This document shows, one piece after another, positions 26,022 to 51,251 of a stretch of DNA of 64,000 bases (position 1 is its first letter; each line of letters opens with the position of its first letter). The DNA lies in NCBI GenBank assembly GCA_902774055.1, contig CACYGX010000011.1:1-64000 (forward strand). Reading direction: 5' to 3'. The notes beneath the pieces are model-generated. The model saw only the letters and a program-made list of their open reading frames with translations, was not told where the DNA came from and did no database searches. The DNA comes from an uncultured Bacteroidales bacterium. GTDB lineage: Bacteria > Bacteroidota > Bacteroidia > Bacteroidales > Muribaculaceae. Both the position numbers and the translations under genes were made by a program.

Positions 26022-26035
26022 CGCAAACGATTGCA
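26022..26035. promoter_or_regulatory. LacI-type operator, susC/lacI intergenic
   Basis: CGCAAACGATTGCA is a near-palindrome with the central CG typical of LacI-family operators. It is 55 bp upstream of the susC -7 box and overlaps the lacI -33. It shares 13 of 14 bases with the site at 33926. Confidence 0.8.
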
Positions 26036-26090
26036 TTTATTTAGTGAAAAATTTAACATTATAAAAAAAGATATTTTATAGGGATTTTTC

Positions 26091-26098
26091 TATTTTTG
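26091..26098 (+). promoter_or_regulatory. -7 box of the sus operon
   Basis: TATTTTTG matches TAnnTTTG. No TTTG is found at the -33 position, as expected for an activator-dependent promoter. The leader to the susC ATG is about 120 bases. Confidence 0.65.
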
Positions 26099-26226
26099 CC
26101 CTGTTTTAACAGCCTTAAAAAGGCCATTAAAAACCAACTTGAGGCACATTATAGCCTGGAAAAGACTTATAAGGTGGAGATTAAACATTTAATTATCAAT
26201 ATTATATTAACTTTAAAAATTTAAAA

Positions 26227-29200
26227 ATGAAGCAGGTAAACATCAGAATTCCGTTTAGGATTCTAACCCTCGTGATGGGACTTTTCCTGTCACTGGGAGC
26301 CTATGCACAGATTACTGTGAATGGCCTTGTGAAGGATGCTACCGGCGAGCCTGTCATCGGCGCGAGTGTTCGTGTCGTCGGCACGCAGCAGGGTACAGTT
26401 ACCGACTTTGACGGTCTCTTTACCCTCGAAGGCGTGCCCCAGGGCGCCAAGCTCCAGATTTCGTCGATTGGCTATGATGCCCAGGAGGTGACAGCAGCCA
26501 GTGACGTGGTAGTAACACTTGCCGAGAGCAGCCAGATGCTCCAGAATCTGGTGGTCATCGGTTATGGTGTCGTTAAGAAAAAAGACTTGACCGGTTCGGT
26601 CGCTTCTCTCAAGCCCGATGAGAAGAACCACGGTCTGGTTGTTAACGCCCAGGACATGATCCAGGGTAAGATTGCCGGTGTGAACGTGACCAGCGGTGAC
26701 GGTGTGCCTGGCGGCGCTCCCACCATCCGCATCCGCGGTGGTTCGTCACTGAACGCATCCAACGACCCCCTCATCGTGATTGATGGTCTGGCTCTGGACC
26801 GCCAGGGTGTAAAGGGTGTTGCTAACCCCTTGTCTATGGTCAATCCCGCCGACATCGAGAGCTTCACCGTCTTGAAGGACGCATCGGCCACCGCCATCTA
26901 TGGTAGCCGTGGTTCTAACGGTGTCATCATCATCACCACCAAGAAGGGTCGCAAGGGTCAGGCTCCGCGCGTGAGCTACAATGGTAGCGTCGGCTTCTCG
27001 ACTGTTAAGAAGACGCTCGGTGTGCTCAATGCCGACGAGTACCGCAACTTCATCTACAACTATTATGGTGAGGAAAGCGATGCCGCTAAGTTGCTTGGCA
27101 ACGCCAACACCGACTGGCAGAAGGAGATTTACCGCAATGCCATGACTACCGACCACAATGTGACCGTTTCGGGTGGCTTGGCCAATTTGCCTTATCGCGT
27201 GAGCGCTGGTTATACCTATCAGGATGGTGTCTTGAAGACCTCCAACTTCCAGCGTGCCACTGTCAGCGCAACATTGAACCCCTCGTTCCTGAACGACCAT
27301 CTGAATTTCAACATCAATGGTAAATTCATGTATGCCAAGAACCGCTATGCTAATGGCTCGGCCATCGGCGAGGCTGTTCGCATGGATCCCACCCAGCCCA
27401 TTATGGTGGCTGAAGGCTTTGATAAATTCGGTGGCTACTTCACTTGGACCGACAAGGGTGATCTGGGTGATCCCAATTTCCCGCTAGTTCCCAACCGTAA
27501 CACGGCCAAGAACCCTGTCGCTCTGCTCAACGAGAAGGACGACCGCGCCAACTCCTACGACTACATGGGTAATGTTGAGGTGGACTATCAGATCCATGGT
27601 TTTGAGGACCTGCGCTTGCACATGAACCTCAGCGGTGACTGGAGCAACGGTAAGCAGAAGACCCACTACGATCCCTGGGGCCCGTCAAACTTCTACTATG
27701 GCAATGACGGCTTCACCAAGGAGAAAAAGTACAACTTGACCTATTCAGCCTATGCTCAGTACTTCAAGGACTTCACCGAGACCCAGCACTTCGACATCAT
27801 GGGCGGTTATGAGTGGAGCCACAATAAGTATTGGGGCAATTCCTACTATGCAGGATTATATCCATTAACTAACGAAACGTTCGATAAAAATGGTGTTCCC
27901 AATGCTGGCCGTCCTTATGACGAAAAGATTGGTGAGTGGAAGCAGGAGAACTATCTGGTATCGTTCTATGGCCGTGCCAACTATATCGGTTGGGACCGCT
28001 ATCTGTTGACCGTCACTGTTCGTCGCGACGGTTCGAGCCGCTTTAAACAGCACTGGGCAACATTCCCTTCGGTAGCATTAGGTTGGAAAATCAGCGAGGA
28101 ATCCTTCTTGAAGGACCTCGGCTGGATGGATGAACTCAAGCTCCGTCTGGGTTGGGGTAAGACCGGTCAGCAGGATGGTATCGGTAACTACAACTACTTT
28201 AATTCATATAGTGTAAATACCAATAACTCCGACGGTCGTTATCCTCTCGTGGGCCTGAACGACGAAGGTCTCCTCTATCGTCCCGATGCCTACAATTTGG
28301 ACTTGAAGTGGGAGACCACTACGACCTACAATGCCGGTCTTGATTTCATGTTCTTCCACAACCGCTTGAGCGGTAGTTTCGATTACTATTACCGCAAGAC
28401 CACCGACCTGATCAATACCGCTACTGTATCGGCAGGTTCTAACTTCCGCAACCAGGTGCCCCAGAATATCGGTTCACTGGAGAACCGCGGTTTTGAGGCT
28501 TCGATTACCGTTCGTCCCATCTCGACCGAGGACTGGCAGTGGGAACTCACCGGTAACTTTACCTATAACAAGAACAAGATCACTGAGTTGACAGGTGAGT
28601 CAGCACTCGTTAGAACGGGTGGTATCTCGGCTGGTACCGGTAACACCGTTCAGGCCCATGCTGTTGGTCATCCTGCAAGCTCGTTCTATGTCTATCAGCA
28701 GGTCTATGGCGAGGACGGCCGACCCTTGGAAGGCGTCTTTGTTGACCGTAACTCCGATGGTCAGATTTCGGAGGACGACCTCTATTTCTACAAGAGCCCG
28801 GCAGCACCCTACACCGCTGGCTTGAGCTCCCGCCTCCAGTACAGGAATTGGGACTTCGGTTTCAACCTGCGTGCCAACTTTGACAACTATGTTTACTGGG
28901 ATAGAGGCGCTGGTTATTCTAACGTCGCTAAGCGTTATGACAGCTCATACGGCTATCTCCAGAACGTGATTCCCCAGGCTGTTACTAACGGTTGGACGAC
29001 CTATGACAAGGTGGTCAGCGACTACTTCGTGCGCAACGCTTCGTTCCTCAAGTGTGACAACATCACGCTGGGTTACAGCTTCGCCAACCTCCTGCACAGG
29101 GGTAACTGGCAGGGTATGAATGGCCGCGTTTATGTAAGTGCTACCAACGTGTTCACCATCACCAAGTATGATGGCCTTGATCCTGAGGTCTTCGGTGGTA

Positions 29201-29262
29201 TTGACGGTGGCATTTATCCCCGTCCCTTCACAGTTCAGCTCGGTCTGAACCTGAATTTCTGA
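26227..29262 (+). CDS. susC: SusC-like TonB-dependent outer-membrane transporter
   Basis: A 1011-residue SusC-family receptor. A signal peptide ends AYAQ (about residue 28). A carboxypeptidase-regulatory-like domain follows (about 29-100; VNGLVKDATGEPVIGASVRV). The TonB-box/plug region is next (LQNLVVIGYGVVKKKDLTGSV, IRIRGGSSLNASNDPLIVIDG, DASATAIYGSRGSNGVIIITTKKG). A 22-strand barrel runs to the terminal Phe (VQLGLNLNF). It forms the pump of the starch system and imports malto-oligosaccharides across the outer membrane with its SusD lid. It is first in the operon, with susD 35 bp downstream. Starch specificity is inferred from the neighbouring enzymes. Confidence 0.93.
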   Translation: MKQVNIRIPFRILTLVMGLFLSLGAYAQITVNGLVKDATGEPVIGASVRVVGTQQGTVTDFDGLFTLEGVPQGAKLQISSIGYDAQEVTAASDVVVTLAESSQMLQNLVVIGYGVVKKKDLTGSVASLKPDEKNHGLVVNAQDMIQGKIAGVNVTSGDGVPGGAPTIRIRGGSSLNASNDPLIVIDGLALDRQGVKGVANPLSMVNPADIESFTVLKDASATAIYGSRGSNGVIIITTKKGRKGQAPRVSYNGSVGFSTVKKTLGVLNADEYRNFIYNYYGEESDAAKLLGNANTDWQKEIYRNAMTTDHNVTVSGGLANLPYRVSAGYTYQDGVLKTSNFQRATVSATLNPSFLNDHLNFNINGKFMYAKNRYANGSAIGEAVRMDPTQPIMVAEGFDKFGGYFTWTDKGDLGDPNFPLVPNRNTAKNPVALLNEKDDRANSYDYMGNVEVDYQIHGFEDLRLHMNLSGDWSNGKQKTHYDPWGPSNFYYGNDGFTKEKKYNLTYSAYAQYFKDFTETQHFDIMGGYEWSHNKYWGNSYYAGLYPLTNETFDKNGVPNAGRPYDEKIGEWKQENYLVSFYGRANYIGWDRYLLTVTVRRDGSSRFKQHWATFPSVALGWKISEESFLKDLGWMDELKLRLGWGKTGQQDGIGNYNYFNSYSVNTNNSDGRYPLVGLNDEGLLYRPDAYNLDLKWETTTTYNAGLDFMFFHNRLSGSFDYYYRKTTDLINTATVSAGSNFRNQVPQNIGSLENRGFEASITVRPISTEDWQWELTGNFTYNKNKITELTGESALVRTGGISAGTGNTVQAHAVGHPASSFYVYQQVYGEDGRPLEGVFVDRNSDGQISEDDLYFYKSPAAPYTAGLSSRLQYRNWDFGFNLRANFDNYVYWDRGAGYSNVAKRYDSSYGYLQNVIPQAVTNGWTTYDKVVSDYFVRNASFLKCDNITLGYSFANLLHRGNWQGMNGRVYVSATNVFTITKYDGLDPEVFGGIDGGIYPRPFTVQLGLNLNF

Positions 29263-29297
29263 TAACTAATGACAATAGAACTTCAATATTCTTAGAT

Positions 29298-31004
29298 ATG
29301 ATGAACTTAAGTTTTTTCAAAAAGATAATGCTTGGCGCAACCTGCCTGCTCGCTACAGGATTGAGTTCTTGTGTCAATGACCTGGATGTTACTCCGATCG
29401 ACCCGAGTACTACTATGGAGGCCGACGAGGTTGCTCTGTTCACCAAGTGCTATGCCACTATGGCCCTTGCTGGTAACACTGGCGCCAACGGCGATTGCGA
29501 CATCGACCGTCTGGATGGCGGTACCACAGGTTTCGTTCGCCAGCTCTGGAATGCCAATGAGTTGACCACCGACGAGGCCATCTGTGCTTGGGGTGACCCT
29601 GGTATTCCTGGTTTTAACTATAATCAGTGGGATGCATCCCATCCCATGCTGGAGGGTTTCTATAACCGCCTCTACTCGAGTATTTCCTATTGCAACCACT
29701 ATCTCGAGTTGTTCTCTGGTGTTGACAAGACGCGTGAGGCCGAGGTGCGCTTCCTGCGCTGCCTGTACTACTATCACCTGATGGATTGCTATGGCAATGT
29801 GCCTTTTGCAACTAGAATCCTTGTGACAGAATTGCCCGAGCAGATTCAGCGCGCTGACTTGTTCAAGTGGATTGAGGATGAATTGCTGGCCGTGAAGGAT
29901 GATATGATGACTCCCGCAGCTCGCAAGAGCTCGGACAATGGTTATGGCCGCGCCGACCAGGATGCTGCCAATCTGTTGCTGGCCCGTATGTACTTGAATG
30001 CTGAGGTCTATACCGGCACTGCCCGTTGGGCCGATGCGCTGAAGTATGCCAAGATGGTCATCGATGGTCCCCACAAGCTTTGGACCAACGGCACCGACCA
30101 GTGGAGCGCTTACCAGATGCTCTTTATGGGTGACAACGGTGAGAACGGTGCTTCCCAGGAAGCTATCCTTCCCCTGTTGCAAGATGGCTTGAAGACTACC
30201 AGTTGGGGTACTACCTTGTTCCTGATGGCTTCGACCTGGAAGAGCGACATGGATGAGAGCCTCTATGACCTTGGTAACGGTGACGAGGGCTGGTTGCCCA
30301 CTGGCACCGTGGATAACGATCCCGACGATGGCATTGACACCGTTCTGATTCGCAGCTATGCTTATGGCACCACCGAGTTCTGGGCTGGTAACCGTGCACG
30401 TTTCCAACTGCTTCAGAAATTCTTCCCTGGTGGTACTGTGCCCAGCGTGAATATCCAGCAAATGGTTGAGGCTGCTGGCGATGACCGTGCCTTGTTCTAC
30501 GGCAAGGGCCGCACCGCTAATGTGGACAATCCCAGTGAATATACCTCGGGTTATGCTGTTGGTAAGTACCGCAACACCTACTCGACAGGTGCAAATTCAC
30601 ACAGTACACAATTTGTTGACGCTGACTACTTCCTGATGCGTTCGGCCGAGGCTTACCTCATCGCAGCCGAGGCTGATGCCCGCCTGAATGGTGGTCAGAC
30701 GACTCCCGAGGGTGCCGGTTACATCAATGCACTGCGCAACCGTGCCAACACTTGGACTGTAAGCCAGTACTCTCTGGATCAGATTCTTGACGAGCGTTCA
30801 CGCGAGTTGTATTACGAGGGCTTCCGCCGCACCGACCTTATCCGTTACGGATACTTTGGTGGTGACAGGAGCGGTGCTTATCTGTGGGAGTGGAAAGGCG
30901 GTGCCCAGAATGGTGCCCCGATTCCCGCATTCCGCAACCTGTTTGCTATTCCTGCCGAGGACGTGAATGCCAATCCCAAGCTCGTTCAGAACCCAGGTTA
31001 TTAA
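29298..31004 (+). CDS. susD: SusD-like surface starch-binding lipoprotein
   Basis: A 568-residue lipoprotein (lipobox LLATGLSSC, Cys25) of the RagB/SusD family. The helical core contains tetratricopeptide-like helices, for example DEVALFTKCYATMALAG, AEVRFLRCLYYYHLMDCYGNVPF and YLIAAEADARLNGG. The C-terminal family motif INALRNRANTWT is followed by ILDERSRELYYEGFRRTDLIRYG. It is anchored on the cell surface and acts as the lid of the SusC barrel, handing glycans into it. The gene is 35 bp after susC. Confidence 0.93.
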   Translation: MMNLSFFKKIMLGATCLLATGLSSCVNDLDVTPIDPSTTMEADEVALFTKCYATMALAGNTGANGDCDIDRLDGGTTGFVRQLWNANELTTDEAICAWGDPGIPGFNYNQWDASHPMLEGFYNRLYSSISYCNHYLELFSGVDKTREAEVRFLRCLYYYHLMDCYGNVPFATRILVTELPEQIQRADLFKWIEDELLAVKDDMMTPAARKSSDNGYGRADQDAANLLLARMYLNAEVYTGTARWADALKYAKMVIDGPHKLWTNGTDQWSAYQMLFMGDNGENGASQEAILPLLQDGLKTTSWGTTLFLMASTWKSDMDESLYDLGNGDEGWLPTGTVDNDPDDGIDTVLIRSYAYGTTEFWAGNRARFQLLQKFFPGGTVPSVNIQQMVEAAGDDRALFYGKGRTANVDNPSEYTSGYAVGKYRNTYSTGANSHSTQFVDADYFLMRSAEAYLIAAEADARLNGGQTTPEGAGYINALRNRANTWTVSQYSLDQILDERSRELYYEGFRRTDLIRYGYFGGDRSGAYLWEWKGGAQNGAPIPAFRNLFAIPAEDVNANPKLVQNPGY

Positions 31005-31029
31005 TCCACTTACTTAAGAATACAGTAAT

Positions 31030-32250
31030 ATGAAAAAGATATTTTTCTATGCAATGATGTTGGTGGCCTGCACTATGGCATTCACATCGTGCAGTGACGA
31101 TAATGACTCTAACCCGACGCTCATTCAGCCCACTGAGTTCAAACTCAATGAGCTCACCCTTGATGCTAATGCACTGATTGACCTCGAGGAGAGCAAGACC
31201 ATCCCCATGTCATGGTCACAGCCCGTGTACACCACCTTTAATGCTCCCGTAATTGCCACCTATTCTATCCAGGTTTCTAAGAATGGCAACTACACTAACG
31301 AGTACGATGCTAGCCAGGAGGACAATTCAGCTGCCGACTTTGTGACGCTGGACGAGACCTTCACCACTTGCAAGGTTGACGTGTCAACCGAGAGCATTGA
31401 CAAAGCCCTGGTTCGTCTGTATGGATGGACCGAGGATTCTATCATCCCCAACGAGGTTCCCGTCTATATCCGTGTGAAGTCTGCCGTTCAGGACGCTTCG
31501 TTCAACGAGTATGGCACGGTTTATTCCAACGTGCTCAAGATGAGGGCTGTTCCCTATTACATTGAGTTGGCTAATGCTCCTATCGAGTTGTGGTACCTCA
31601 CTGGTAACTGCATTGCCGATGGTTCATGGACCAATAGCGAAGATGCTATCGGTACAAGGATGACTCCGATGTATCCTATCCCCGGCATGGAGTATGATAA
31701 GATTACTGGCCAGGGTGTCATTGAGTATGCTGGCTACTTCCCCGAGGGTGCCCAGTTCAAGATTATTGCTAAAGCCGGATTGAGCAACTGGAATTACGGC
31801 ATGTGTGGCGGTGATGAGAATGGTGGTCAGGTTTACCGTGATGGCGGTGACGATCCCGGTAATATCTCCATCACCGAGGCAGGATGGTACAGAATTGAGA
31901 TCAATACTAAGACTCACGAGATGTCTTGGGATAAACTCGGGGAATGTCCTGTCTTTACTCAGATCTCAATGCCTGGCGCATACCAAGGATGGGATACCAG
32001 CAAGAATCTCATGAATGCAGTGACTACTGTTACCGAGAACCATGACTGGTATGTTGGCAAGATGGAGATTACCGAGGACACTGAACTCAAGTTTGCTGCC
32101 GACAACGATTGGGCTGTAAACTGGGGTAAAGATGTATTCCCCTATGGTAAGGGTGAACAAGATGGCAAAAACATTCCCGTTACTGCTGGTACTTATAATG
32201 TGTTCTTCAACGACATTTTGGGCACTTATAACTTTATCCTTATTAAGTAA
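31030..32250 (+). CDS. susE: SusE-like starch-binding lipoprotein
   Basis: A 406-residue lipoprotein with signal FYAMMLVACTMAFTSC (Cys21). An N-terminal SusE-type Ig-like domain (about 35-180; IPMSWSQPVYTTFNAPVIATYSI) is followed by two carbohydrate-binding modules. The first is at about 185-295 (IELWYLTGNCIADGSW), the second at about 300-406 (FTQISMPGAYQGWDTSKNLM). The second is nearly the same as the last module of the next gene, so the two share a recent duplication. It binds starch at the surface and supports SusCD. Third gene of the operon. Confidence 0.88.
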   Translation: MKKIFFYAMMLVACTMAFTSCSDDNDSNPTLIQPTEFKLNELTLDANALIDLEESKTIPMSWSQPVYTTFNAPVIATYSIQVSKNGNYTNEYDASQEDNSAADFVTLDETFTTCKVDVSTESIDKALVRLYGWTEDSIIPNEVPVYIRVKSAVQDASFNEYGTVYSNVLKMRAVPYYIELANAPIELWYLTGNCIADGSWTNSEDAIGTRMTPMYPIPGMEYDKITGQGVIEYAGYFPEGAQFKIIAKAGLSNWNYGMCGGDENGGQVYRDGGDDPGNISITEAGWYRIEINTKTHEMSWDKLGECPVFTQISMPGAYQGWDTSKNLMNAVTTVTENHDWYVGKMEITEDTELKFAADNDWAVNWGKDVFPYGKGEQDGKNIPVTAGTYNVFFNDILGTYNFILIK

Positions 32251-32261
32251 TTAATAACAGT

Positions 32262-32306
32262 TCTGACGGATGGGCCGTGGCCCGTGCGACGGCCCACCCA
32301 GTCAGA
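32262..32306 (+). other. Intra-operon hairpin between susE and susF
   Basis: TCTGAC (32262-32267) pairs with GTCAGA (32301-32306), enclosing GGGCCGT with ACGGCCC in the same helix. The stem is long and GC-rich with a small bulge, in the 79-bp susE-susF gap. There is no T-run. It could act as a partial terminator or a site of mRNA processing that changes the ratio of the products. Confidence 0.55.
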
Positions 32307-32329
32307 TATAATATCGATACATAGTTATT

Positions 32330-33811
32330 ATGAAGAAGTTTTTATATATTGCCGCAATGACCATGTTGCTGGCAAGCTGTACCGAGGATTTCAAGGACTG
32401 GACCACTCCCCAGAGCAATACTCAGGGCGAGAAGGTGACCTTTGGTAACGGTACGATTACTCCTGTCGATGTGATTGATTTCGGCGCGCTCTCCGACGAC
32501 ATCGAGACGGTGCAGGTTTGCGAGATCAATGCTGTCACTTCGAGCGACCCCACCTATGTTCCCGAATATACCATCACTCTGAACGGCGAGGAATTCCCCC
32601 TGGAACCCGATGGTACGATGGATGCCAAGGATCTTGAGCAGTATGTTGTTGTACTCTACGGCCAGGAGCCCGTGGTGCGTACCCTCACCGCTCAGGTGAA
32701 GTGTATCATGAACAATGAAGCAACGGCAGTGGCAATCGTCAGCGACGAGTTCAATGTTAGGGTTATTCCCGATGCTCCCACGATTTCTAGCGCTTATTAT
32801 TACATCGGTTCTTCAAATAATTGGACCAAATGTGATGCCTCTTACCCGCTCAGCAACGGCGGTGGTGATGTTTATGCTAACCCCGTCTTCAGCGTTGTTG
32901 TTCCTGCTGTCTATGACGAGAATGGTGTTCGCACTGATAACAGGTTCAAGATTTACTCTCAAGAGACGATGGATCTGGGTGTTGATAATTTCTATAACGG
33001 TGACTTCATCGGTTATCCAGTCAATGGCGAGAATGAGATGAGCGGTGAATTTATTGAAGGTGCCAACGATGTAATTGCTTTTGACTTCAAGATTCCCGCC
33101 GACATCGAGGCCGACAAGTATCGCTTGACCTTTGACATGTTCAACCGCACGTTCACCATCGAGCCTCTCATCGACCTTGGTGAGCCCGACCTGTGGTACC
33201 TTGTTGGTAGCTGCATCGGTAACGGTTCGTGGGTCAACGAGGCAGGCAACGTGGGTATCTCTCTGATTCCCATGTATCCCAAGACCGATAACTACAACAT
33301 CAACACCTACGTTGGCTACTTCCCCGCTGGACAGGGCTTCAAGCTCATCCACACTCCCGGTAACTGGGACGAGCAGTGGGGTCAGAAGGACGGTATCTTC
33401 GTGAAGAACGATGGCGGTAGCAGTGATATCACTGTTCCCGAGGACGGTTACTACGAGATTACCTACGACATGCAGGCCGATGCACTGACCATCATGAAGT
33501 ATGCAGGCACCGTTGCTGTTTACAGTCAGATTGGTATGCCTGGTGGATATCAGGGTTGGGACACTGGTTCTAACCTGATGGATGCCATGAGCACAGTTGT
33601 TGAGAACCACGACTGGATCATCAAGGGTGTTACCTATGATGCTACCGAGTTGAAGTTCGCTGCTGATAATAGCTGGGACGTTAACTGGGGTGGTGCAGCC
33701 TTCCCCTTGGGACTTGGCGAGCATAACGGTCCCAACATCCCCGTCGAGGCTGGTACCTATGACGTGATCTTCAACGACATCCTGGGCGAGTACTACTTCA
33801 TCGCCAAGTAA
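32330..33811 (+). CDS. susF: SusF-like starch-binding lipoprotein
   Basis: A 493-residue lipoprotein with signal FLYIAAMTMLLASC (Cys17). It has an N-terminal Ig-like region and three carbohydrate-binding modules: about 155-275 (YYIGSSNNWTKCDASYPL), 280-390 (PDLWYLVGSCIGNGSWVNEAG) and 395-493 (YSQIGMPGGYQGWDTGSNLM). The last aligns closely with the end of SusE. The three-module layout is the usual SusF arrangement. It is last in the operon and followed by a hairpin at 33862-33894. Its function is to hold starch at the cell surface. Confidence 0.88.
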   Translation: MKKFLYIAAMTMLLASCTEDFKDWTTPQSNTQGEKVTFGNGTITPVDVIDFGALSDDIETVQVCEINAVTSSDPTYVPEYTITLNGEEFPLEPDGTMDAKDLEQYVVVLYGQEPVVRTLTAQVKCIMNNEATAVAIVSDEFNVRVIPDAPTISSAYYYIGSSNNWTKCDASYPLSNGGGDVYANPVFSVVVPAVYDENGVRTDNRFKIYSQETMDLGVDNFYNGDFIGYPVNGENEMSGEFIEGANDVIAFDFKIPADIEADKYRLTFDMFNRTFTIEPLIDLGEPDLWYLVGSCIGNGSWVNEAGNVGISLIPMYPKTDNYNINTYVGYFPAGQGFKLIHTPGNWDEQWGQKDGIFVKNDGGSSDITVPEDGYYEITYDMQADALTIMKYAGTVAVYSQIGMPGGYQGWDTGSNLMDAMSTVVENHDWIIKGVTYDATELKFAADNSWDVNWGGAAFPLGLGEHNGPNIPVEAGTYDVIFNDILGEYYFIAK

Positions 33812-33861
33812 AAAGTTGACCATGTAGAGACGCTAAATCAGGCGTCACTATCAATCCAATA

Positions 33862-33894: not shown

Positions 33895-33925
33895 TGTAAT
33901 CTTAAAAAACGGGCCAAAAAGGCTC

Positions 33926-33939
33926 TGCAAACGATTGCA
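33926..33939. promoter_or_regulatory. LacI-type operator upstream of the alpha-amylase
   Basis: TGCAAACGATTGCA, the best of the three copies. It lies 56 bp upstream of the -7 box at 33996-34003. Confidence 0.82.
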
Positions 33940-33995
33940 CATTGATTTTTTGTATAGATATTTCTGTTAAAGGCTTGGAATTAAGGATTATTTGC

Positions 33996-34003
33996 TATAT
34001 TTG
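33996..34003 (+). promoter_or_regulatory. -7 box of the amylase-galactanase operon
   Basis: TATATTTG matches TAnnTTTG and lies 32 bp upstream of the amylase ATG. The -33 region has only TTGG at 33975, 17 bp upstream. Confidence 0.7.
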
Positions 34004-34035: not shown

Positions 34036-36108
34036 ATGAAAAAGATTTTTACTACAGCACTTGTATTGATGTTGCCGTTACTGATGATGGCACAGGGCTG
34101 GCCGTCAAAGTATAGCGGCGTGATGTTACAGGGTTTCTATTGGAATTCCTTTAACGACTCCCGATGGCCCAAACTCGAGGCTCAGGCCGATGAGTTCGCT
34201 GAGTTCTTTAAGCTCGTGTGGATTCCCCAGAGCGCCAAGTGTAGCAATGGTCAGTCCATGGGTTATGATGACCTGTACTGGCTCACCAATTATACCAGCG
34301 CCTTTGGTAATGAGTCACAACTGCGCTCGATGATCAAGACCTTCAAGAACAAGGGCATCGGCACTATTGCCGACGTGGTGATCAACCACCGCGCCACCAT
34401 CAACGACTGGGTGACTTTCCCCGTCGAGGAGTATAATGGTGTGACCTACAAGATGCTCCCGTCCGACATTTGCAAGAATGATGATGGCGGTGCCACTCAG
34501 AACTGGGCAAGCCAGAACGGCATTTCCTTGAGTAACAATAACGATACTGGTGAGGACTGGGGCGGCATGCGTGACCTGGATCACCGCAGCACCAATGTGC
34601 AGGAGATCGTCAAGGCTTACGTCAAGATGCTGCTCGATGACCTGGGCTATGCAGGCTTCCGCTATGACATGGTCAAGGGCTACGGTGCGACCTATACGGG
34701 CATGTATAATTCCTATGCTGCTCCCGAGTTCTCGGTGGGCGAGTACTGGGATGGCAATCAGGGCGCTGTCAAGAACTGGATCGACGGCACCAAGGTGAAT
34801 GGCATTGTCCAGAGTGCGGCATTTGACTTCCCCTTCCGCTACGTCATTCGCGACGCGGTCAACAATAACCGCTGGACCAACTTGGGTACCTCTAGCAACA
34901 AGGGACTCTGCCAGGAGAACAATTACCGCCGCTATGCGGTTACCTTCATCGAGAACCACGATACCGAGTACCGCAGTGCCAACGAGCAGCAGGATCCCAT
35001 CCGCAACAACATCGAGGCCGGTAATGCCTACATGCTCGCCATGCCGGGCACTCCCTGCGTCTTCTTGAAGCACTGGATTGCTTACAAGGAGAGCATCAAG
35101 CAGATGATTTATGTGCGTCAGTTGGCTGGTGTGACCAACACGAGCAATACCTATAATGTGGACATGAATGCTGGCTCGAACTACTATGTTCAGCGCACGA
35201 TTGGTGATCGTGGCGTGATCCTGGCAGCCATGGGTAGCACTTCCTATCAGATTCCTCAAAACTATGTTGAGGTGGCCAGTGGAACTAACTACCGCCTGGC
35301 GTTGAGCCGCACCACCGAGACTGCATGGGTGAGCAAGCCCAGCGGTGAATATGAGGGCACCATCGACGTGAAGTTCACAGCCGTGAGCCAGACAGGCGAT
35401 GCCAAGCTCGTCTATACCACCGACGGCAGTGAGCCCACCGCCAGCAACGGCACCCAGGTCGCCGATGGCACTACCATCAGCCTCGACAAGACCACGACCT
35501 TGAAGGTGGGTCTGTTGATTGGCAACGCAGTGAGCGGCGTGATTGTGCGCAACTACACCATCGACAACTCGGAGTTTGAGCCCTATGAGATCACGGTCTT
35601 CCTCAAGGATCCTACCGTTGCGCCCAACAACTGGAGCGTGGTCAACTACTACACTTGGGACAGCTCTAACCAGCAGTTCAACGGCAACTGGCCAGGCCAG
35701 GCAACAACCGACACCCGCGAGGTTAACGGTGAGAAGTTCTATTACAGGACTTATATGATCACTGGCAAGGATTACTACATGAACTTTGTCTTCAACCAGG
35801 GCCCGAGCAACGTGCAGACCGAGGACGTGACCTTTATCAACAAGACTTCGTTCTTTGAGGTGACTACCCAGACCAACAAGTATCAGGTGAGGGATGTGAC
35901 CGAGCAGTACTTGCCTTATCTGGACGATGACGATGATCCCATTCCTGGCGATGTCAATGGTGATAGGGAGGTGACCATTGCCGACGCTAACGCCGTGATC
36001 AACATGATCCTGACTGGCAACTTCGAAGCCGTAGGTGATGTTGACGGTGACGGTGAGGTGACCATCAGCGACGTGAATTTTGTGATCAACCTTATTTTGT
36101 CGAACTAA
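34036..36108 (+). CDS. Secreted alpha-amylase (GH13) with starch-binding and dockerin-like modules
   Basis: The protein has 690 residues. A signal peptide ends LLMMAQ (residue 20). A GH13 catalytic domain spans about 25-430, with the nucleophile D211 (GFRYDMVKGY), acid/base E236 (FSVGEYWDG) and D309 (ENHDTEY). A chitobiase-like beta module follows at about 436-510 (LVYTTDGSEPTAS). A CBM26-like starch-binding module is at about 520-620 (EITVFLKDPTVAPNNWSVVNYY). A pair of dockerin-like repeats ends the protein (637-690; VNGDREVTIADANAVINMIL). It cuts internal alpha-1,4 bonds of starch outside the cell. No Cys lipobox, so anchorage is unclear. It is under its own operator and promoter, with the galactanase 16 bp downstream. 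Confidence 0.9.
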   Translation: MKKIFTTALVLMLPLLMMAQGWPSKYSGVMLQGFYWNSFNDSRWPKLEAQADEFAEFFKLVWIPQSAKCSNGQSMGYDDLYWLTNYTSAFGNESQLRSMIKTFKNKGIGTIADVVINHRATINDWVTFPVEEYNGVTYKMLPSDICKNDDGGATQNWASQNGISLSNNNDTGEDWGGMRDLDHRSTNVQEIVKAYVKMLLDDLGYAGFRYDMVKGYGATYTGMYNSYAAPEFSVGEYWDGNQGAVKNWIDGTKVNGIVQSAAFDFPFRYVIRDAVNNNRWTNLGTSSNKGLCQENNYRRYAVTFIENHDTEYRSANEQQDPIRNNIEAGNAYMLAMPGTPCVFLKHWIAYKESIKQMIYVRQLAGVTNTSNTYNVDMNAGSNYYVQRTIGDRGVILAAMGSTSYQIPQNYVEVASGTNYRLALSRTTETAWVSKPSGEYEGTIDVKFTAVSQTGDAKLVYTTDGSEPTASNGTQVADGTTISLDKTTTLKVGLLIGNAVSGVIVRNYTIDNSEFEPYEITVFLKDPTVAPNNWSVVNYYTWDSSNQQFNGNWPGQATTDTREVNGEKFYYRTYMITGKDYYMNFVFNQGPSNVQTEDVTFINKTSFFEVTTQTNKYQVRDVTEQYLPYLDDDDDPIPGDVNGDREVTIADANAVINMILTGNFEAVGDVDGDGEVTISDVNFVINLILSN

Positions 36109-36124
36109 CTGACTAGATTACTAC

Positions 36125-39421: not shown

Positions 39422-39430
39422 ACAAGGGCA

Positions 39431-43542: not shown

Positions 43543-43607
43543 GTTTTGTTGGTTTATCTGTTCATTTTATTTACCGCAAAGTTACACAAAAAGCCGATTA
43601 TTTTATG

Positions 43608-43615
43608 TACTTTTG
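43608..43615 (+). promoter_or_regulatory. -7 box of ddl; decides its start
   Basis: TACTTTTG matches TAnnTTTG, 29 bp upstream of the ATG at 43645. It rules out the longer in-frame start at 43546. Confidence 0.6.
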
Positions 43616-43644
43616 CACCGAAATTTAATGTGCGCAATAATCCA

Positions 43645-44646: not shown

Positions 44647-44647
44647 T

Positions 44648-44675
44648 AAAAAAAGAGCCATATGGCTCTTTTTTT
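44648..44675. terminator. Bidirectional terminator after ddl
   Basis: A-run, GAGCC-atat-GGCTC, T-run: a perfect stem of 12 bp including seven A-T pairs, ending on both strands in T-tracts. Confidence 0.9.
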
Positions 44676-44703
44676 AGATTAGGGATTAGGGATTAGAGAT
44701 TAG
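44676..44703. repeat. Left inverted repeat of the four-helix-bundle cassette (heptamer array)
   Basis: Four 7-mers, AGATTAG, GGATTAG, GGATTAG and AGATTAG, in tandem. Their reverse complements recur at 45104-45135. The stop codon of the enclosed gene (44700-44702) lies in the last repeat. Confidence 0.85.
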
Positions 44704-45068
44704 TGAGGCGTTTGTGCCAATTTGCTTGAACGCAAGCCACTGATTAGCTTTGATGTGTTGTTGATGATGGGCTTGATTTGATTAAAATCTTCCTCTGAAA
44801 TATAGTTAAGGTCAAGAGCTATCTGTAGTTGGCAATAAATCTCCATCACTGAACCATAAGCTATTTCAAGAAAATGAATCTGCTCTTTCACTGCCATCCT
44901 GCCATTGCCCTCTGCAATATTGGATGGTACTGAAATTGCTGCACGGCGCAACTGGTCACAAAGCGCATATCTTTCCTCATGGGGGAACTTTTTGATCAAT
45001 TGATATACAGCTGCAACCAACTTTCTGGACTCTTGCCATGCTTTCAATTTCTCAAATTGGTACTCCAT
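44700..45068 (-). CDS. Four-helix bundle protein (S23/intervening-sequence protein family)
   Basis: A 122-residue, all-helical protein. FEKLKAWQESRKLVAAVYQLIKKFP, the RYALCDQLRRAAISVPSNIAEG motif and KEQIHFLEIAYGSVMEIYCQLQIAL are diagnostic of the S23/IVP four-helix bundle family. Members were first found in intervening sequences of 23S rRNA genes and are common as single genes in Bacteroidota. The role is unknown; a related fold, Avd, works with diversity-generating retroelements, but no reverse transcriptase is present here. The gene fills the space between two heptamer inverted repeats and stands between ddl and the pullulanase. Confidence 0.9.
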   Translation of the reverse strand: MEYQFEKLKAWQESRKLVAAVYQLIKKFPHEERYALCDQLRRAAISVPSNIAEGNGRMAVKEQIHFLEIAYGSVMEIYCQLQIALDLNYISEEDFNQIKPIINNTSKLISGLRSSKLAQTPH

Positions 45069-45103
45069 CTGATTTCTTTAACATCATTTATTTCTCTAAT
45101 CAA

Positions 45104-45135
45104 ATCTCTAATCCCTAATCTCTAATCTCTAATCT
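45104..45135. repeat. Right inverted repeat of the four-helix-bundle cassette (heptamer array)
   Basis: ATCTCTAATCCCTAATCTC followed by TAATCTCTAATCT. The reverse complement gives AGATTAG repeats matching 44676-44703 with few substitutions. It ends 4 bp from the stop codon of the pullulanase gene. Confidence 0.85.
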
Positions 45136-45139
45136 GAAA

Positions 45140-47059
45140 TCAATTATGAATAATCAGGGCGCTTTGGGCGGGGATGGTGACTTTGCCGCCTTTTATGGTG
45201 GTCAGGCCGGCTTGGTCGCACTTGATGTTACGGCAGACGACGGTATAGGTGCCCTCGGGAACCTCGATGGAGCGGGCGCGCTTGTGGGTGTTAAATGCAA
45301 CGTAGATGTCATTCCATTGCTCGCCGGGCACGTTCTTGCCATTGATGTGGAAGGCCACGAGGCAATTTTCGGTAGGCAGGAAGTCCAGGTTGCGACGCAC
45401 CATGTCGGCACTGCCCATGTGGAAGGCGGGATGTGCCTTGCGCATGGCGATGAGGTTCTTGTAGTACTCCATCACCTGGGGATAGCGCTCCATGTTGTCC
45501 CAATCCAAATGGTTGATGCTGTCGGGGCTCTCGTAGCTGTTGTGGACGCCCTTCTTGTCGCGCAGCATCTCCTCACCGCTGAGCATGAACGGCACACCCT
45601 GTGAGGTCATCACCACGGTCTGAGCCAGCAGGTCGAGGCGGATGAGTTCGTCGGTAGTGATGCCCTTGACGCTTGCCTTGAGGCGGTCCACCAGACACAT
45701 GTCGTCATGGCAGCTCACGTAGGCGATCATCTGGGTCGGTTCGGTGGCATAAGGTGCCTTGCTGTAGTTTACCTTACTGTAGTCCACACCAGGATGCTGA
45801 ATAGCGCCCACGATGCCAAACTTGAGGCTCTCCTCATAGCCCTTGACGCCGCCCAGGAAGGCAGCCTTGCTATTGCTGTCCCATGGACCGCGCAAACCGT
45901 CGCGGATGCAGTCGCTGAATGCAGCAATGCCCGGCATCTGCTGGATGTGAGCCTTCATAGCCAGTTTATCGCCGGGATAGGCACAGTTGCCAGCGCTCCA
46001 GCCCTCGCCATAGATAAAGATATCCTGGGGCACGGCGTTGCGGATGGCGTTCATCGTCTCGATATCATGCACACCCATCAGGTCGAAGCGGAAACCGTCG
46101 ATGTGGTATTCATCGACCCAGTACTTCACGCTCTCGACCATGTATTGGCGCATACCCTCGCGCTCGCTCGCTGTCTCGTTGCCGCAACCGCTGCCGTTGC
46201 TGTAGCTGCCGTCAGCGTTCTTGCGGTAGAAATAGTCGGGGCGGGTGAGTTGGAAGTTGCTGCCGTCAATGTTCCAGGTGTGGTTATACACCACGTCGAG
46301 GATGACCTTGATTCCAGCCTTGTGCAAGGCCTGCACCATCTGCTTGAACTCGTTGATGCGCACCTCGGGCTTATAGGGGTCGGTAGAATAGCCGCCCTCG
46401 GGCACGTTATAGTTCACGGGGTCGTAACCCCAATTGTACTGCGGCTCGTTCAGGCGGGTCTCGTCAACCGACGCATAGTCGAATGAGGGCAGGATGTGCA
46501 CGGCATTCACGCCCAGGGTCTTCAGGTGGTTGATGGCGCGAGGCTCGGTCAAGGCAAGAAATTTGCCCTTGTAGGTGAAGCCACCCGACTCGTCGATGGA
46601 GAAGTCACGGTGGTGCATCTCATAGAGGACAAGGTCCTTGGCGGGAATGTTGGGCCGCACATCGGCTTTCCAACCCTGGGGGTCGGTCTCAGTCATGTCA
46701 ACGATGGCGCCACGCTTGCCGTTCACGCCAACCGCCGTTGCCCATATGCCGGCGCACTCACCACGGAACTTGCCGCCATATTTCACGTCAAAGGTGTAGA
46801 ACTTACCCTTCAGGTCCCCCTTGACGGTGGCCTGCCACAGCGTGCCTCCGGCCTGCTCGCGCTTCATGTTGACGGTCTTGACGGGTTTGCCGCCCAGGCC
46901 GTCCTTGTAGATGCGCAGTTTCACCTGCTGGGCATCGCTATTGGTCTCAATGGAGAAACCGCTCGCCCCGGGGCTATAGGTGACCCCGGTGCGGGCGTTG
47001 GTGGATTGCGGTACGAGTAATGCCATGATTATCGCAACCAGTAAAGTGAAGCGTTTCAT
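45140..47059 (-). CDS. pulA: Type I pullulanase (GH13)
   Basis: A 639-residue exported enzyme with a signal peptide (1-22). An N-terminal CBM48-like beta domain (about 25-135) precedes a GH13 barrel. The pullulanase signature YNWGYDP is at 208-214; catalytic D326 (GFRFDLMG) and E352 (YGEGWS) follow, with SCHDD near residue 455. It cuts alpha-1,6 branches in pullulan and limit dextrins. Its ATG overlaps the stop of the GH77 gene by one base (TAATG), so translation is coupled. It is last in the operon of transporter, GH77 and pullulanase. Confidence 0.9.
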   Translation of the reverse strand: MKRFTLLVAIIMALLVPQSTNARTGVTYSPGASGFSIETNSDAQQVKLRIYKDGLGGKPVKTVNMKREQAGGTLWQATVKGDLKGKFYTFDVKYGGKFRGECAGIWATAVGVNGKRGAIVDMTETDPQGWKADVRPNIPAKDLVLYEMHHRDFSIDESGGFTYKGKFLALTEPRAINHLKTLGVNAVHILPSFDYASVDETRLNEPQYNWGYDPVNYNVPEGGYSTDPYKPEVRINEFKQMVQALHKAGIKVILDVVYNHTWNIDGSNFQLTRPDYFYRKNADGSYSNGSGCGNETASEREGMRQYMVESVKYWVDEYHIDGFRFDLMGVHDIETMNAIRNAVPQDIFIYGEGWSAGNCAYPGDKLAMKAHIQQMPGIAAFSDCIRDGLRGPWDSNSKAAFLGGVKGYEESLKFGIVGAIQHPGVDYSKVNYSKAPYATEPTQMIAYVSCHDDMCLVDRLKASVKGITTDELIRLDLLAQTVVMTSQGVPFMLSGEEMLRDKKGVHNSYESPDSINHLDWDNMERYPQVMEYYKNLIAMRKAHPAFHMGSADMVRRNLDFLPTENCLVAFHINGKNVPGEQWNDIYVAFNTHKRARSIEVPEGTYTVVCRNIKCDQAGLTTIKGGKVTIPAQSALIIHN

Positions 47060-49740
47060 TAGCGTCCGTTTTGAGCAATCAGTTCTTTCACATGGCCATT
47101 AAACTCATTAGCCTTCATTAACTGCTCGATGGTCATGTGCATGCGATAGCGCCAGTAGTGGCGGGGATTGGCGGGGATGTTGATGCGTTCGGCGTCGGCA
47201 TCGGCCAGTCGCATTTTCTCATCGATAGCGAGCCAGTCTTGCAACGAGAGCAGGCACAGCATCGACGGACATGCCAGGTGAGCGCGCACGATGTCGTCGG
47301 CCAGCCATCCGGGCAGCGGGTGCGGAGCGGCATCATTGCGCCACAACGAGGTGTTGTAGTACTCCTGGGTGCGGTCCCAGTCTTCTTCCCACCACTGCCT
47401 CAACGTGGGCATGTCGTGGGTCGAGATGGTGGCGACGCTGCGATAGGGGTTGGCATTGAGGTTGCCGAACTTGATGTGGTTGTCCTTGGGCATCGATTGG
47501 ATTTCGAGGCTCAAGATGCGCAACTCATTCATTACCCATGCCACACAGTCGGGCACCATGCCCAAGTCCTCGGCGCAAACGAGCATGCGGGTTGCCTGAA
47601 CCAGCTTGGGCAGTTTCTTCATCGCCTCGTGATACCAGAAGTCGTTGTTGCGACGATAGTAGTACTCGTTGTAGAGCTTGTTGAAGGCAGCCTTGTCGTT
47701 GTCGTAGAGGGCCTCATAGATGAAGTCGAACTGTACCGAGATGCGCGGATGGAACAATGCGGGGTTCTTGCGGTCGCGCACGAACAGTACATCGCTGATG
47801 AGTGCATACAAGCCATCCCTGATCCACTTGTCATCATCGCTGTTTTTACCCTGGAAGGCGGCTTCCACCTTGCGTTGGGTGTCATATTCGGGCTTCATGC
47901 GGTAGATGTCGTCATGAACGCGCTCAACATATTTCTCGCGAACGGTGTCGGCCCACTTGCCAAAGATGCGGTCAAGCACCCAATCGGCAATGAACGGTTC
48001 GGTCATCAGCTGCTCCTGGAAGTTGAGGCCGTAGCTGCGGATTTCCTGGGCGCTCATGCCCTGGGAGGGGGAGAATTGGCCAAGCAGACCATGGACAGCG
48101 TTGATAGGAATCTCCCAAATGCGGAAGAAACCGAGCACGTGGTCGATGCGGTAGGCGTCGAAGTACTGCGACATCTTGCGGAAGCGCTTTACCCACCACT
48201 GGCAACCGTCACTGAGCATCACGTCCCAGTTGTAGGTCGGGAATCCCCAGTTCTGGCCGTTGGTCGAGAATGCATCGGGTGGGGCACCTGCCTGGCCGTT
48301 GAGGTTGAAGTACTTGGGCTCAACCCACGCCTCTACACTGTCGCGGCTGATGCCGATGGGGATATCACCCTTGAGGATGACGTGCTTGCTCTGGGCATGC
48401 TCGTGGGCTGCGTGCATCTGCTTGTCGAGATAGAACTGGATGTAGTACCACAGGGCAACGTCCTTGAAGGCCTTGGTGCGCGGATTGGACATCGCAGCCC
48501 GCTCTTCGTCGCTGAAGGTGTGGTTCGAGGGCCACTTGGAGAACGTTGATGTGCCATACAGGTCACGGTAGTGGCAGAAAGCAGCATAGGGTACCAGCCA
48601 ATCCTGGTTGGCACTGAAGAACGCCTTGAATTCGTCGCTCTTGAGAACTTCGGCACCTTCCTGTTCAAACAGGAGCTTCATGTATTCGCGCTTGGCGTTG
48701 TTCACGCGCTCATAGTCGATTTGCGGCAGGGCATTCAGCTCCTTGCGCAGTTTCTCAAACTCAGCAGCCTGTTTCTTGTCGGCGAGTTTGGGCAGTTGGC
48801 GCAGGTCCATGTACTGCGGATGCAGGGCATAGATGCTGATGCTGTTGTAAGGATAGCTGTCGCTCCAGGTGTGGGTGATGGTCGTGTCGTTGATGGGCAA
48901 TACCTGCAGGGCGCGCTGACCCGTGCTAGCCACCCAATCCACCATCAGTTTGAGGTCGCCAAAGTCGCCCACGCCGAAGCTACCCTCGCTGCGAAGCGAG
49001 AAGATGGGGACCACGGTACCCGCGAGCTTGACGGGATACAGCGGGAAGTAGGCCTGCGACAACTCGTAGATGGTGTGTTCGCCGTCCTTGAGCACGGGCA
49101 GCAAGACGGTGCGGTTGTCGCCCGTTTCCCAGATGATGGGGTTTCCCTTGCCGCCGAGGATGACGAACTTGAACTCAATAAACGCCTTCTTGAACGCTGC
49201 CGGGTCAAGCGAGATGCACCACTCGTTGTGGTTATGCTCGGTCATCTTCAAGGCCTTGCTCTCGTTCCAGTCGCCCAGGGTGGGCTCGTTGCCGATGATG
49301 GCAAGCGTCTCGCCGGTGCGCAGTTGGGGAGCACGGACCTTGAGTTGTACGCTGGACGGAGATTTGGCCTTGGGGACGGCCTGGTGCTTGCGCAGGGCGA
49401 CACAATCGGTAAATGCCGAGCTGTACAGGTAACTGTCGTCGGGAATGTCATTCCAGTGGTCGTAGGTGATATAGCGGGTCGCCTTAGCGGCATTCAGGTC
49501 AAGGCGGTGGGCAACTACCATCCACTCGTGGCGCACTTCACGGCCATCACGTTCCACGCTATAGAAATAATTGATGTGTCCTGCCCGTGCGGGAACATCC
49601 AGGTCACATTTCCACGACTTGTCATTCGCGGGTTTCATGACATGGCGGCTGACAACCTCGATTGCCTCTTGGTCCATGACATTGATAACCAGATTCTCAC
49701 CATAGATGGTGCTATACTCTACATTAAATCTTACTTTCAT
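47059..49740 (-). CDS. malQ: 4-alpha-glucanotransferase (GH77) with N-terminal CBM20 domains
   Basis: The protein has 893 residues without a signal peptide. Two CBM20-like starch-binding domains are at about 1-110 and 125-235 (TLAIIGNEPTLGDWNESKALKM). The GH77 amylomaltase domain follows from about 240 (VVPIFSLRSEGSFGVGDFGD). Catalytic residues are the Asp in YRIDHVLGFF (about 531), the Glu in CAEDLGMVP (about 721) and the Asp in STHDMPTLRQWW (about 776). It transfers maltodextrin segments in the cytoplasm. The CBM20-GH77 layout resembles plant DPE2 and is typical of Bacteroidota. Between the transporter and pullulanase genes. Confidence 0.92.
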   Translation of the reverse strand: MKVRFNVEYSTIYGENLVINVMDQEAIEVVSRHVMKPANDKSWKCDLDVPARAGHINYFYSVERDGREVRHEWMVVAHRLDLNAAKATRYITYDHWNDIPDDSYLYSSAFTDCVALRKHQAVPKAKSPSSVQLKVRAPQLRTGETLAIIGNEPTLGDWNESKALKMTEHNHNEWCISLDPAAFKKAFIEFKFVILGGKGNPIIWETGDNRTVLLPVLKDGEHTIYELSQAYFPLYPVKLAGTVVPIFSLRSEGSFGVGDFGDLKLMVDWVASTGQRALQVLPINDTTITHTWSDSYPYNSISIYALHPQYMDLRQLPKLADKKQAAEFEKLRKELNALPQIDYERVNNAKREYMKLLFEQEGAEVLKSDEFKAFFSANQDWLVPYAAFCHYRDLYGTSTFSKWPSNHTFSDEERAAMSNPRTKAFKDVALWYYIQFYLDKQMHAAHEHAQSKHVILKGDIPIGISRDSVEAWVEPKYFNLNGQAGAPPDAFSTNGQNWGFPTYNWDVMLSDGCQWWVKRFRKMSQYFDAYRIDHVLGFFRIWEIPINAVHGLLGQFSPSQGMSAQEIRSYGLNFQEQLMTEPFIADWVLDRIFGKWADTVREKYVERVHDDIYRMKPEYDTQRKVEAAFQGKNSDDDKWIRDGLYALISDVLFVRDRKNPALFHPRISVQFDFIYEALYDNDKAAFNKLYNEYYYRRNNDFWYHEAMKKLPKLVQATRMLVCAEDLGMVPDCVAWVMNELRILSLEIQSMPKDNHIKFGNLNANPYRSVATISTHDMPTLRQWWEEDWDRTQEYYNTSLWRNDAAPHPLPGWLADDIVRAHLACPSMLCLLSLQDWLAIDEKMRLADADAERINIPANPRHYWRYRMHMTIEQLMKANEFNGHVKELIAQNGR

Positions 49741-49782
49741 GATTGTAGTTATTAGACTTCAGACTTTACAGTCATTGGTTAT

Positions 49783-51114
49783 TTAGTTCTTGTGTTTCTT
49801 ATCCTCGATGATGAATACGCAACCTGCACCCACGATGAGCAGGATTCCTGCCAGCAGGAGCATGTTGCCCTGCACGCTGTTCATGGCAGCAAGCAGCAAG
49901 CCACCCAATGCGGCGGCAACGATCTGCGGAACGCAGATGGTGCAGTTGAACAGACCCAGTGCGGTGCCCATGCGGCTGCTGCCCTCAAAGGCGTTAGTCA
50001 CCATGGTAAACGGCATGGCGAGCATGGCGGCCCAGGCGAAACCGATGAGGAAGTAGGGCACAAACAGCATGTACTGGTTGTCGATATAGGGAACCATGGC
50101 GAAGCCGATACCACCGATAACGAGGCTCACGGCGTAGGCCAACTTGATGTTCTTGAATTGCGGCAACACAACGGCCCAGAGGACGCTGCCGATAGCCTGA
50201 ACGGCGAACAGGATGCCCACCCAGTTACCGGCTTTCTGATAACCCTCGCTGGCGGCATCGGTGGTCTTCCACACGGTGTCGGCAATGGTGCCGTTGGTGT
50301 AGGTCCACATGTACATGAAGGCTGCCCAGCAGAAGAACTGTACCAGACCCACCTCAAAGAACACCCTGATGGCATGCTTCTTCTGGGCGGGGCTCATCTC
50401 GGCCGAGGCCTGTTGGTCGGTAGCGCTCTCGGCATTGGCGGCAGCGTTAAACTCGGCCATTTGTTGGGGCGTATATTCCTTAACATGGCTGATGGTGTAG
50501 ATGACGCACAGGATCAAGATGGCGGCACCTACATAGAAGGACCACTTCACACTGTCGGGGACAACGCCCTCGGGGGCGATGTTGGCAATACCGATGGCCG
50601 TGAACAGGAACGGGAAGATGTAACCCACCAGCGAACCTGCGTTGCACAGGAACGACTGGATGCTGTAGGCTTTGGCCTTCTGTTTCTCGTTAACCATGTC
50701 GCCCACCATCATCTTGAAGGGCTGCATGGCCATGTTGATGCTCGTGTCAAGGAACATCAGGGCAATCAATCCAAAGGTCATTGCGCCGGCAATGGTCAAA
50801 CCGAAAGATCCCGCATTGGGCAGCAGGCACATCACGATGACGGCAGCAAGGGCGCCAATCAGCAGATAGGGAATGCGACGACCCCAGCGGCCCAACCACG
50901 TCTTGTCACTGAAGTAGCCTACAAGAGGTTGCACCACCATGCCCATCAACGGCGGAAGAATCCAGAAATAACTCAGGTTGTGAGGGTCGGCGCCCAGTGT
51001 CGCAAAGATGCGGCTGATGTTGGCACTCTGCAGCGCATAGGCGATCTGCACCCCGAAGAATCCGAAGCTGATGTTCCACAGCTGGTTGAATTTTAAATCA
51101 GGTTTAGTCTTCAT
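49783..51114 (-). CDS. MFS maltose/maltodextrin transporter (SLC45/GPH-like)
   Basis: A 443-residue inner-membrane protein with 12 predicted helices. After the second helix comes PLVGYFSDKTWLGRWGRRIPYLLIG, with the RWGRR motif of sucrose/maltose-type MFS carriers. DTSINMAMQPFKMMVGDMV and a central cytoplasmic loop (about 215-250) follow. It likely imports maltose or short maltodextrins from the periplasm in symport with protons. It is the first gene of an operon with GH77 and pullulanase, under a LacI-type operator and -7 box in the gap to ychF. Confidence 0.85.
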   Translation of the reverse strand: MKTKPDLKFNQLWNISFGFFGVQIAYALQSANISRIFATLGADPHNLSYFWILPPLMGMVVQPLVGYFSDKTWLGRWGRRIPYLLIGALAAVIVMCLLPNAGSFGLTIAGAMTFGLIALMFLDTSINMAMQPFKMMVGDMVNEKQKAKAYSIQSFLCNAGSLVGYIFPFLFTAIGIANIAPEGVVPDSVKWSFYVGAAILILCVIYTISHVKEYTPQQMAEFNAAANAESATDQQASAEMSPAQKKHAIRVFFEVGLVQFFCWAAFMYMWTYTNGTIADTVWKTTDAASEGYQKAGNWVGILFAVQAIGSVLWAVVLPQFKNIKLAYAVSLVIGGIGFAMVPYIDNQYMLFVPYFLIGFAWAAMLAMPFTMVTNAFEGSSRMGTALGLFNCTICVPQIVAAALGGLLLAAMNSVQGNMLLLAGILLIVGAGCVFIIEDKKHKN

Positions 51115-51174
51115 AATAATTGAGATATTTTATTGTTAAGTAATGATTTCTAAGGAATGGTTGATATTCACCTA

Positions 51175-51182
51175 CAAATATA
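51175..51182 (-). promoter_or_regulatory. -7 box of the transporter-GH77-pullulanase operon
   Basis: The minus strand reads TATATTTG, 60 bp upstream of the ATG. No -33 TTTG is visible. The operator at 51238 is 55 bp upstream. Confidence 0.7.
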
Positions 51183-51237
51183 ACGTAATATTGCCCTTTT
51201 GCTTTAATAATAATGTGACTTAGCCCCAAAAAATCAA

Positions 51238-51251
51238 TGCAACCGATTGCA
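51238..51251. promoter_or_regulatory. LacI-type operator upstream of the maltose transporter
   Basis: TGCAACCGATTGCA differs from the amylase operator at one central base. It lies 55 bp upstream of the transporter -7 box and 13 bp from the -33 of the divergent ychF promoter. Confidence 0.8.

Follow-up and report, generated by a model that had tools for sequence, protein, structure and literature searches.

A LacI-family regulator of gut Bacteroidales predicted to activate starch-use genes from operators held at a fixed distance upstream of the promoter

What does a LacI-family regulator do when its putative operators stand well upstream of starch-use promoters, at nearly one distance from each? 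The question is raised by a stretch of 64,000 nucleotides, hereafter the window, from contig CACYGX010000011.1 of an uncultured, rumen-type Bacteroidales bacterium of the Muribaculaceae (assembly GCA_902774055.1, 94% complete, to which genome-wide counts refer). In it a lacI gene faces away from a susC-led gene cluster, and an amylase gene and a transporter operon lie further along. The initial annotation had placed three LacI-type operators, CGCAAACGATTGCA, TGCAAACGATTGCA and TGCAACCGATTGCA, at 55, 56 and 55 bp upstream of the respective -7 boxes, and both sites and boxes are present as it described. Having followed this geometry through related genomes, we consider it very probable, judging from sequence, that the regulator is an activator of the starch regulon acting in a position-dependent manner from about -74.

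Throughout, the gap is the number of base pairs between the 14-bp operator and a TAnnTTTG -7 box, the boxes being predicted from sequence. The -7 element of Flavobacterium johnsoniae runs from T-12 to G-5, with TAHHTTTG as the better consensus, in the portion of the source available (PMC6847099). With numbering borrowed from that organism, an operator at a gap of 55 would span -81 to -68, with its center at -74.5, and one at a gap of 18 would span -44 to -31 and cover the -33 element.

Counting the motif alone proved of little use within the window, where seven matches at up to two mismatches compare with 3.2 expected and 12 of 100 shuffles reach seven. This lies within chance, and the count was dropped as evidence in favor of the spacing. 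Across the genome, a forward search with YGCAANCGNTTGCA, leaving out the form CGCAA...TTGCG, returned ten matches, three of them in a repeat and seven upstream of starch-related genes (at a one-mismatch setting the backwards control gave 9 places vs 16). Of the seven non-repeat sites, all but one stand at a gap of 53-56 from a perfect box; for the remaining one, the seventh, the box is at 56 and contains one mismatch. Besides the three window promoters, the targets are a 1696-aa CBM26/X25 protein (gap 55), a 1067-aa GH13 amylase (gap 56), an X25 protein with a weak SusE/F match (gap 53) and, for the one-mismatch box, an amylase-like protein. The three repeat matches, CGCAACCGCTTGCA (contigs C17, C22 and C36; loci L313-L315), were rejected as operators, their flanks marking a dispersed repeat with no box; the same repeat recurs in relatives L092, L101 and L102. 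Sites in L098, L106 and L118 were likewise set aside, as they lie in a coding-like stretch and have no box.

The spacing holds throughout the genus. Palindromic sites with a central CG, putative LacI operators, occur in 61/61 genus genomes searched as in the window, the backwards control giving 0-3 matches per genome and strand. A first round of 132 loci (5 from other families; 246 site-orientations) gave boxes at gaps of 53 (5), 54 (12), 55 (46) and 56 (22), against about 0.1 expected per distance, with lesser peaks at 18 (17) and 47-48 (9). Adding 17 named loci and removing the 5 from other families left a genus set of 264 site-orientations, 97 of which have a box at 53-56, with 32 boxes summed across 135 other distances; per distance, boxes are thus about 100 times commoner at 53-56, the control distances excluding <20 and 47-48 because these hold the gap-18 and gap 47-48 peaks themselves (17 and 9). 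The genus site listing covered 20 genomes, from which the sites of 14 and of the window genome were taken, along with 30 further single loci. These 15 enumerated genomes hold 85 distinct sites, 59 of them with A or T flanking the core on both sides, and 51 of the 59 have a perfect box at 53-56.

What lies behind these promoters is equally uniform. The 85 genus promoters at 53-56 lead to 83 readable open reading frames (ORFs), and all except one fall into four similarity clusters: SusC (34), amylases and starch-binding proteins (30), the transporter (11) and a GH13 enzyme (7). Pfam was run on the window-genome members only, and each cluster holds one that it ties to SusC, to starch-binding or amylase domains, to MFS or to GH13. 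The sole target outside these clusters, at L072 (G047) with a gap of 56, is a Fur-like regulator gene judging by its N-terminus.

Beyond the genus, we took the best 80 of 518 LacI relatives in named genomes. These are 87-92% identical in metagenome-assembled genomes of ruminant-gut Muribaculaceae, Prevotellaceae and Bacteroidales, and 66-74% identical in Prevotella and Segatella. An operator stands beside lacI in 75/80 of these loci. On the side facing away from lacI, with TTTG or TTCG accepted as box endings, a box lies at 53-56 in 73 of these 75; the assignment of the divergent gene as susC comes from ORF starts, among the matches listed. In a set of mostly Prevotella loci (L150-L212) the box lies at 53-56 in 118/176 site-orientations, with 5 across the 135 other distances. 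In a further family, f59, 19 of 101 genomes have a LacI relative (E 1e-80 or better), in loci spanning nine genera; allowing one operator mismatch, at least one promoter lies at 53-56 in 19/19 loci and both do in 12. Two of these loci, L320 and L325, have two operators each, one per promoter and each 54-55 bp from its own box. Variable spacing in relatives had been named in advance as grounds for abandoning activation; the spacing found is constant across the genus, the Prevotella-type loci and the 19 f59 loci. A set of 99 distant Bacteroidota LacI loci (10-base core, 174 site-orientations) may include many that serve other sugars; here the gaps form clusters at 53-57 (13), 64-68 (11) and 75-79 (9), with about 0.1 expected per distance and few between the clusters (2 at 58-63, none at 69-74).

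The boxes themselves conform to the refined consensus. TAHHTTTG, with no G at positions 3-4, describes 97/97 genus boxes and 118/118 L150-L212 boxes at 53-56 (215/215 in all), compared with 175/216 and 223/322 of other boxes in the two sets. The stretch between operator and box is AT-rich and partly conserved. As the initial annotation stated, the three window promoters are without a good -33 TTTG, none being present at a spacer of 19-22; the amylase promoter has CTTG at a spacer of 18. The point discriminates poorly: such a TTTG occurs in 3/96 and 2/117 gap-55 promoters and in 3/69 and 11/128 control boxes.

The promoter of lacI is where the geometry varies. On the lacI side of the same operator, the named loci have a box at 53-56 in 47 cases, at 18 in 19 and at 47-48 in six. 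For a tree, 131 loci were reduced to 122 proteins (2 skipped, 7 identical), and in 65 of these the lacI box lies at 53-56; it lies at 17-18 in 37 and at 47-48 in 9, and 11 have none. The gap-18 state is found in the clade that includes the window and, apart from it, in family f22, and gap 48 forms one group; on this quick, midpoint-rooted tree the three states need at least three changes. TTG occupies the -33 slot in 3/65 gap-55 lacI promoters. The earlier suggestion of lacI autorepression fits the window's clade, where the operator at gap 18 would cover the -33 region and lacI probably represses itself. It does not extend to most Prevotella-type loci, which have the box at 53-56 and in which lacI is probably autoactivated. 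The loci with a gap of 47-48 are L153, L165-L167, L177, L179, L187 and L022-L024.

The regulator has an N-terminal LacI helix-turn-helix and a periplasmic-binding-protein-like core (Pfam PF00356, PF13377, PF00532), and is the sole LacI match over the family cut-off in the genome, a second, weak match falling below it. Together with co-location, this suggests that it is the protein that would bind the operators. It is not a CcpA equivalog (NCBIfam ccpA 158.6 bits vs a cut-off of 442.35), and by Pfam domain make-up it is unlike a SusR-type membrane protein with a periplasmic sensor. No further transcription regulator was seen among the Pfam-scanned window proteins, which are part of all, and SusR was not searched for.

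Taken together, these data suggest the following model. A LacI-family dimer would bind TGCAAnCGnTTGCA operators whose centers lie some 74 bp ahead of the start of transcription at starch-use promoters (the susC operon, amylases, starch-binding proteins and the transporter operon), and would activate them through position-dependent contact with RNA polymerase, most likely with the alpha C-terminal domain in a class I-like manner, in response to maltose or a maltodextrin as the presumed ligand. Contact with RNA polymerase had been proposed from the three window sites, and the fixed gap on separate promoters of several genera, often on both sides of a divergent palindrome, speaks for it, since such constancy is hard to explain otherwise. 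A site fixed upstream of the core promoter, here with predicted boxes, is the arrangement of class I-type activation, and activation would be a simpler sign than contact repression. In the window's clade the operator would also lie over lacI's own -33 region and cause self-repression, and in Prevotella-type relatives one palindrome 53-56 bp from both divergent boxes would activate lacI as well. We regard as probable, with more reserve than activation itself, the broader proposal that this Bacteroidales LacI branch acts on starch genes mainly by class I-type activation from one fixed position of about -74, with the sign of autoregulation switched between lineages as the lacI -7 box moved between 18 and 55 bp from the shared palindrome.

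A number of observations weigh against the model. In the window's genome six one-mismatch places lie outside the count of ten, the seventh site has on its opposite side a perfect box at gap 47 ahead of a HAD-family gene, and a neopullulanase-like window gene (40261-42120) has no operator within two mismatches, so the starch genes are not all covered. Among the 15 enumerated genomes, four of the 59 A/T-flanked sites have no box at 53-56 (one is at a contig end) and four have a one-mismatch box only; of the 26 sites whose core has C or G next to it, 18 are without a box and 8 have one. Four of the 19 f59 loci group among Prevotella on the tree, which makes the f59 and Prevotella sets partly dependent on each other. 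The absent -33 element was dropped as strong evidence, control boxes mostly being without it too; the TTG in the -33 slot of 37/37 gap-18 lacI promoters is dictated by the operator's own letters; and the lacI group with a gap of 47-48 (9/122) matches neither the 55 nor the 18 position. Thirty more distant loci inspected singly gave a gap of 53-56 in six and 66-67 in five, on one side, and in the set of 99 distant loci 16 gaps scatter below 40 and 12 at 80-101. It should also be considered that 6/18 of the distant long-gap cases have an additional half-site at a gap of 53-55, so the 11-bp steps would be partly due to tandem half-sites; a strong claim of helical periodicity was toned down for this reason, and in these loci contact may be made at one constant position, with further half-sites lined up behind. 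Finally, fixed spacing points to position-dependent action and does not give its sign.

This last point is the opening for contact repression, in which LacI near -74 would keep RNA polymerase inactive, or block another activator, until released by maltodextrin. Such repression is equally compatible with fixed spacing, and the LacI-family protein GalR of Escherichia coli can repress by contact when bound upstream. In the text available to us, LacI-family proteins are mostly repressors and Streptococcus pneumoniae MalR is a LacI-family repressor of the maltose regulon (PMC4451989); likewise, at lev, CcpA bound upstream hinders LevR and in this way represses (PMC3463425). We nevertheless judge it unlikely here. 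The lack of a good -33 element argues, weakly, for promoters that need help, and, within the window's clade, lacI itself is the sole case of an operator lying over a core element. Nor is a second activator known here, though the AT-rich, partly conserved spacer could hold a site for one. Activation from the fixed position faces a far weaker challenge from the idea that the boxes are spurious, true transcription starts lying elsewhere and the gap merely reflecting common promoter ancestry. TAnnTTTG is short, and close relatives resemble one another in their susC promoters, but within a single genome six separate promoters share one gap although their spacers are unlike, the gap is retained in diverged loci, the boxes at 53-56 fit TAHHTTTG without exception, and in L320 and L325 separate operators hold the gap for each promoter, all of which makes this explanation very improbable. 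Least credible of all is that the operators serve another DNA-binding protein: the assembly is incomplete and the protein-operator link is drawn from sequence, but the 14-mer resembles what we take to be a LacI-family palindrome, it lies directly upstream of lacI in nearly all named relatives, and no other LacI match in the genome exceeds the cut-off.

The features of the locus are collected in Table 1. From its context the transporter probably carries maltose or maltodextrin, and the MalQ and pullulanase genes are probably in one operon with it, for MalQ on the basis of spacing. The transporter operator also lies 37 bp ahead of a TACCTTTG box (51289-51296) facing a divergent ychF-like GTPase gene, and a gap of 37 recurs at loci L052 and L065. 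Dockerin type I domains were seen in the window amylase, a GH53 enzyme, a CotH-kinase protein and a GH13 amylase (window 34036-37486 and 15447-17381; locus L309); to our knowledge these domains are unusual for a Bacteroidota genome. A 23S rRNA-intervening-sequence protein gene lies at window 44700-45068.

Table 1. Genes, putative operators and predicted -7 boxes of the lacI-sus locus and transporter operon (window coordinates)
Feature	Position	Strand	Remarks
Type I pullulanase	45140..47059	-	TIGR02104 above cut-off
4-alpha-glucanotransferase (MalQ) with CBM20	47059..49740	-	Pfam, NCBIfam
MFS/GPH-type transporter	49783..51114	-	Pfam MFS_1; GPH_sucrose below cut-off
TATATTTG, -7 box of transporter operon	51175..51182	-	gap 55
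Operator TGCAACCGATTGCA	51238..51251		motif match
lacI, LacI-family regulator, 346 aa	24899..25939	-	listed start TTG; in-frame ATG at 25930; Pfam LacI HTH 1.1e-15, Peripla_BP_3 1.5e-31
TATCTTCG, -7-like box of lacI promoter	25996..26003	-	gap 18 to operator; gap-18 class in relatives
Operator CGCAAACGATTGCA	26022..26035		common to lacI and susC
TATTTTTG, -7 box of susC	26091..26098	+	gap 55; relatives at 53-56
susC-like TonB-dependent receptor	26227..29262	+	Pfam
susD	29298..31004	+	Pfam SusD_RagB; NCBIfam SusD 1.8e-139, below its cut-off
susE/F-like starch-binding protein	31030..32250	+	Pfam
susF-like starch-binding protein	32330..33811	+	Pfam
Operator TGCAAACGATTGCA	33926..33939		motif match
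TATATTTG, -7 box of amylase	33996..34003	+	gap 56
Alpha-amylase with CBM26 and dockerin domain	34036..36108	+	Pfam

If this model is right, starch use in Prevotella and ruminant-gut Bacteroidales would be run by a LacI-type activator of strict geometry, and the fixed distance between operator and box would make its targets predictable from sequence alone. The lacI promoters would then form a natural test case for the way in which promoter position sets activation or repression, in bacteria whose RNA polymerase works with an unusual primary sigma factor.

Turning to known systems, we found no description of this spacing at the level of titles and abstracts, most subscription papers being beyond reach. 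OsuR, from the 2006 work of Spence et al., is reportedly an activator of the B. fragilis susC/susD-type osu starch operon that mediates maltose induction. It may be a precedent, if it is the LacI-type protein of that species. MalR of Lactococcus lactis belongs to the LacI family. In the accessible portion of one account this maltose regulator is described as activating the mal regulon (PMC4451989), which is the role proposed here for the window LacI; phylum and promoter type are other, and the two are compared by description only. The sus loci of B. fragilis and B. uniformis contain LacI-type regulators, together with MFS transporters and GH65 enzymes, and SusR is absent from both species (PMC11633381). 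In B. thetaiotaomicron, excerpts of the literature have SusR activating starch-use operons in response to maltose (PMC3878776), with MalR also taking part (PMC12632263). The Bacteroides regulators KdgR, UxaR, UxuR and UxmR resemble the window LacI in family and in serving local sugar regulons, but are assigned to hexuronate and mannuronate genes, and the sections available mention no such geometry (PMC3878776, PMC4052901). In B. subtilis, another member of the LacI/GalR family, CcpA, switches on ackA, pta and ilvB; its cre boxes there lie upstream of -35, and its action depends on the face of the helix, in the portion of that source available (PMC3463425). It shares with the proposed regulator both the family and activation from upstream sites. 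It differs in needing HPr-Ser-P and in being a global regulator that mostly represses, whereas here a starch regulon would be served, with most sites at one distance.

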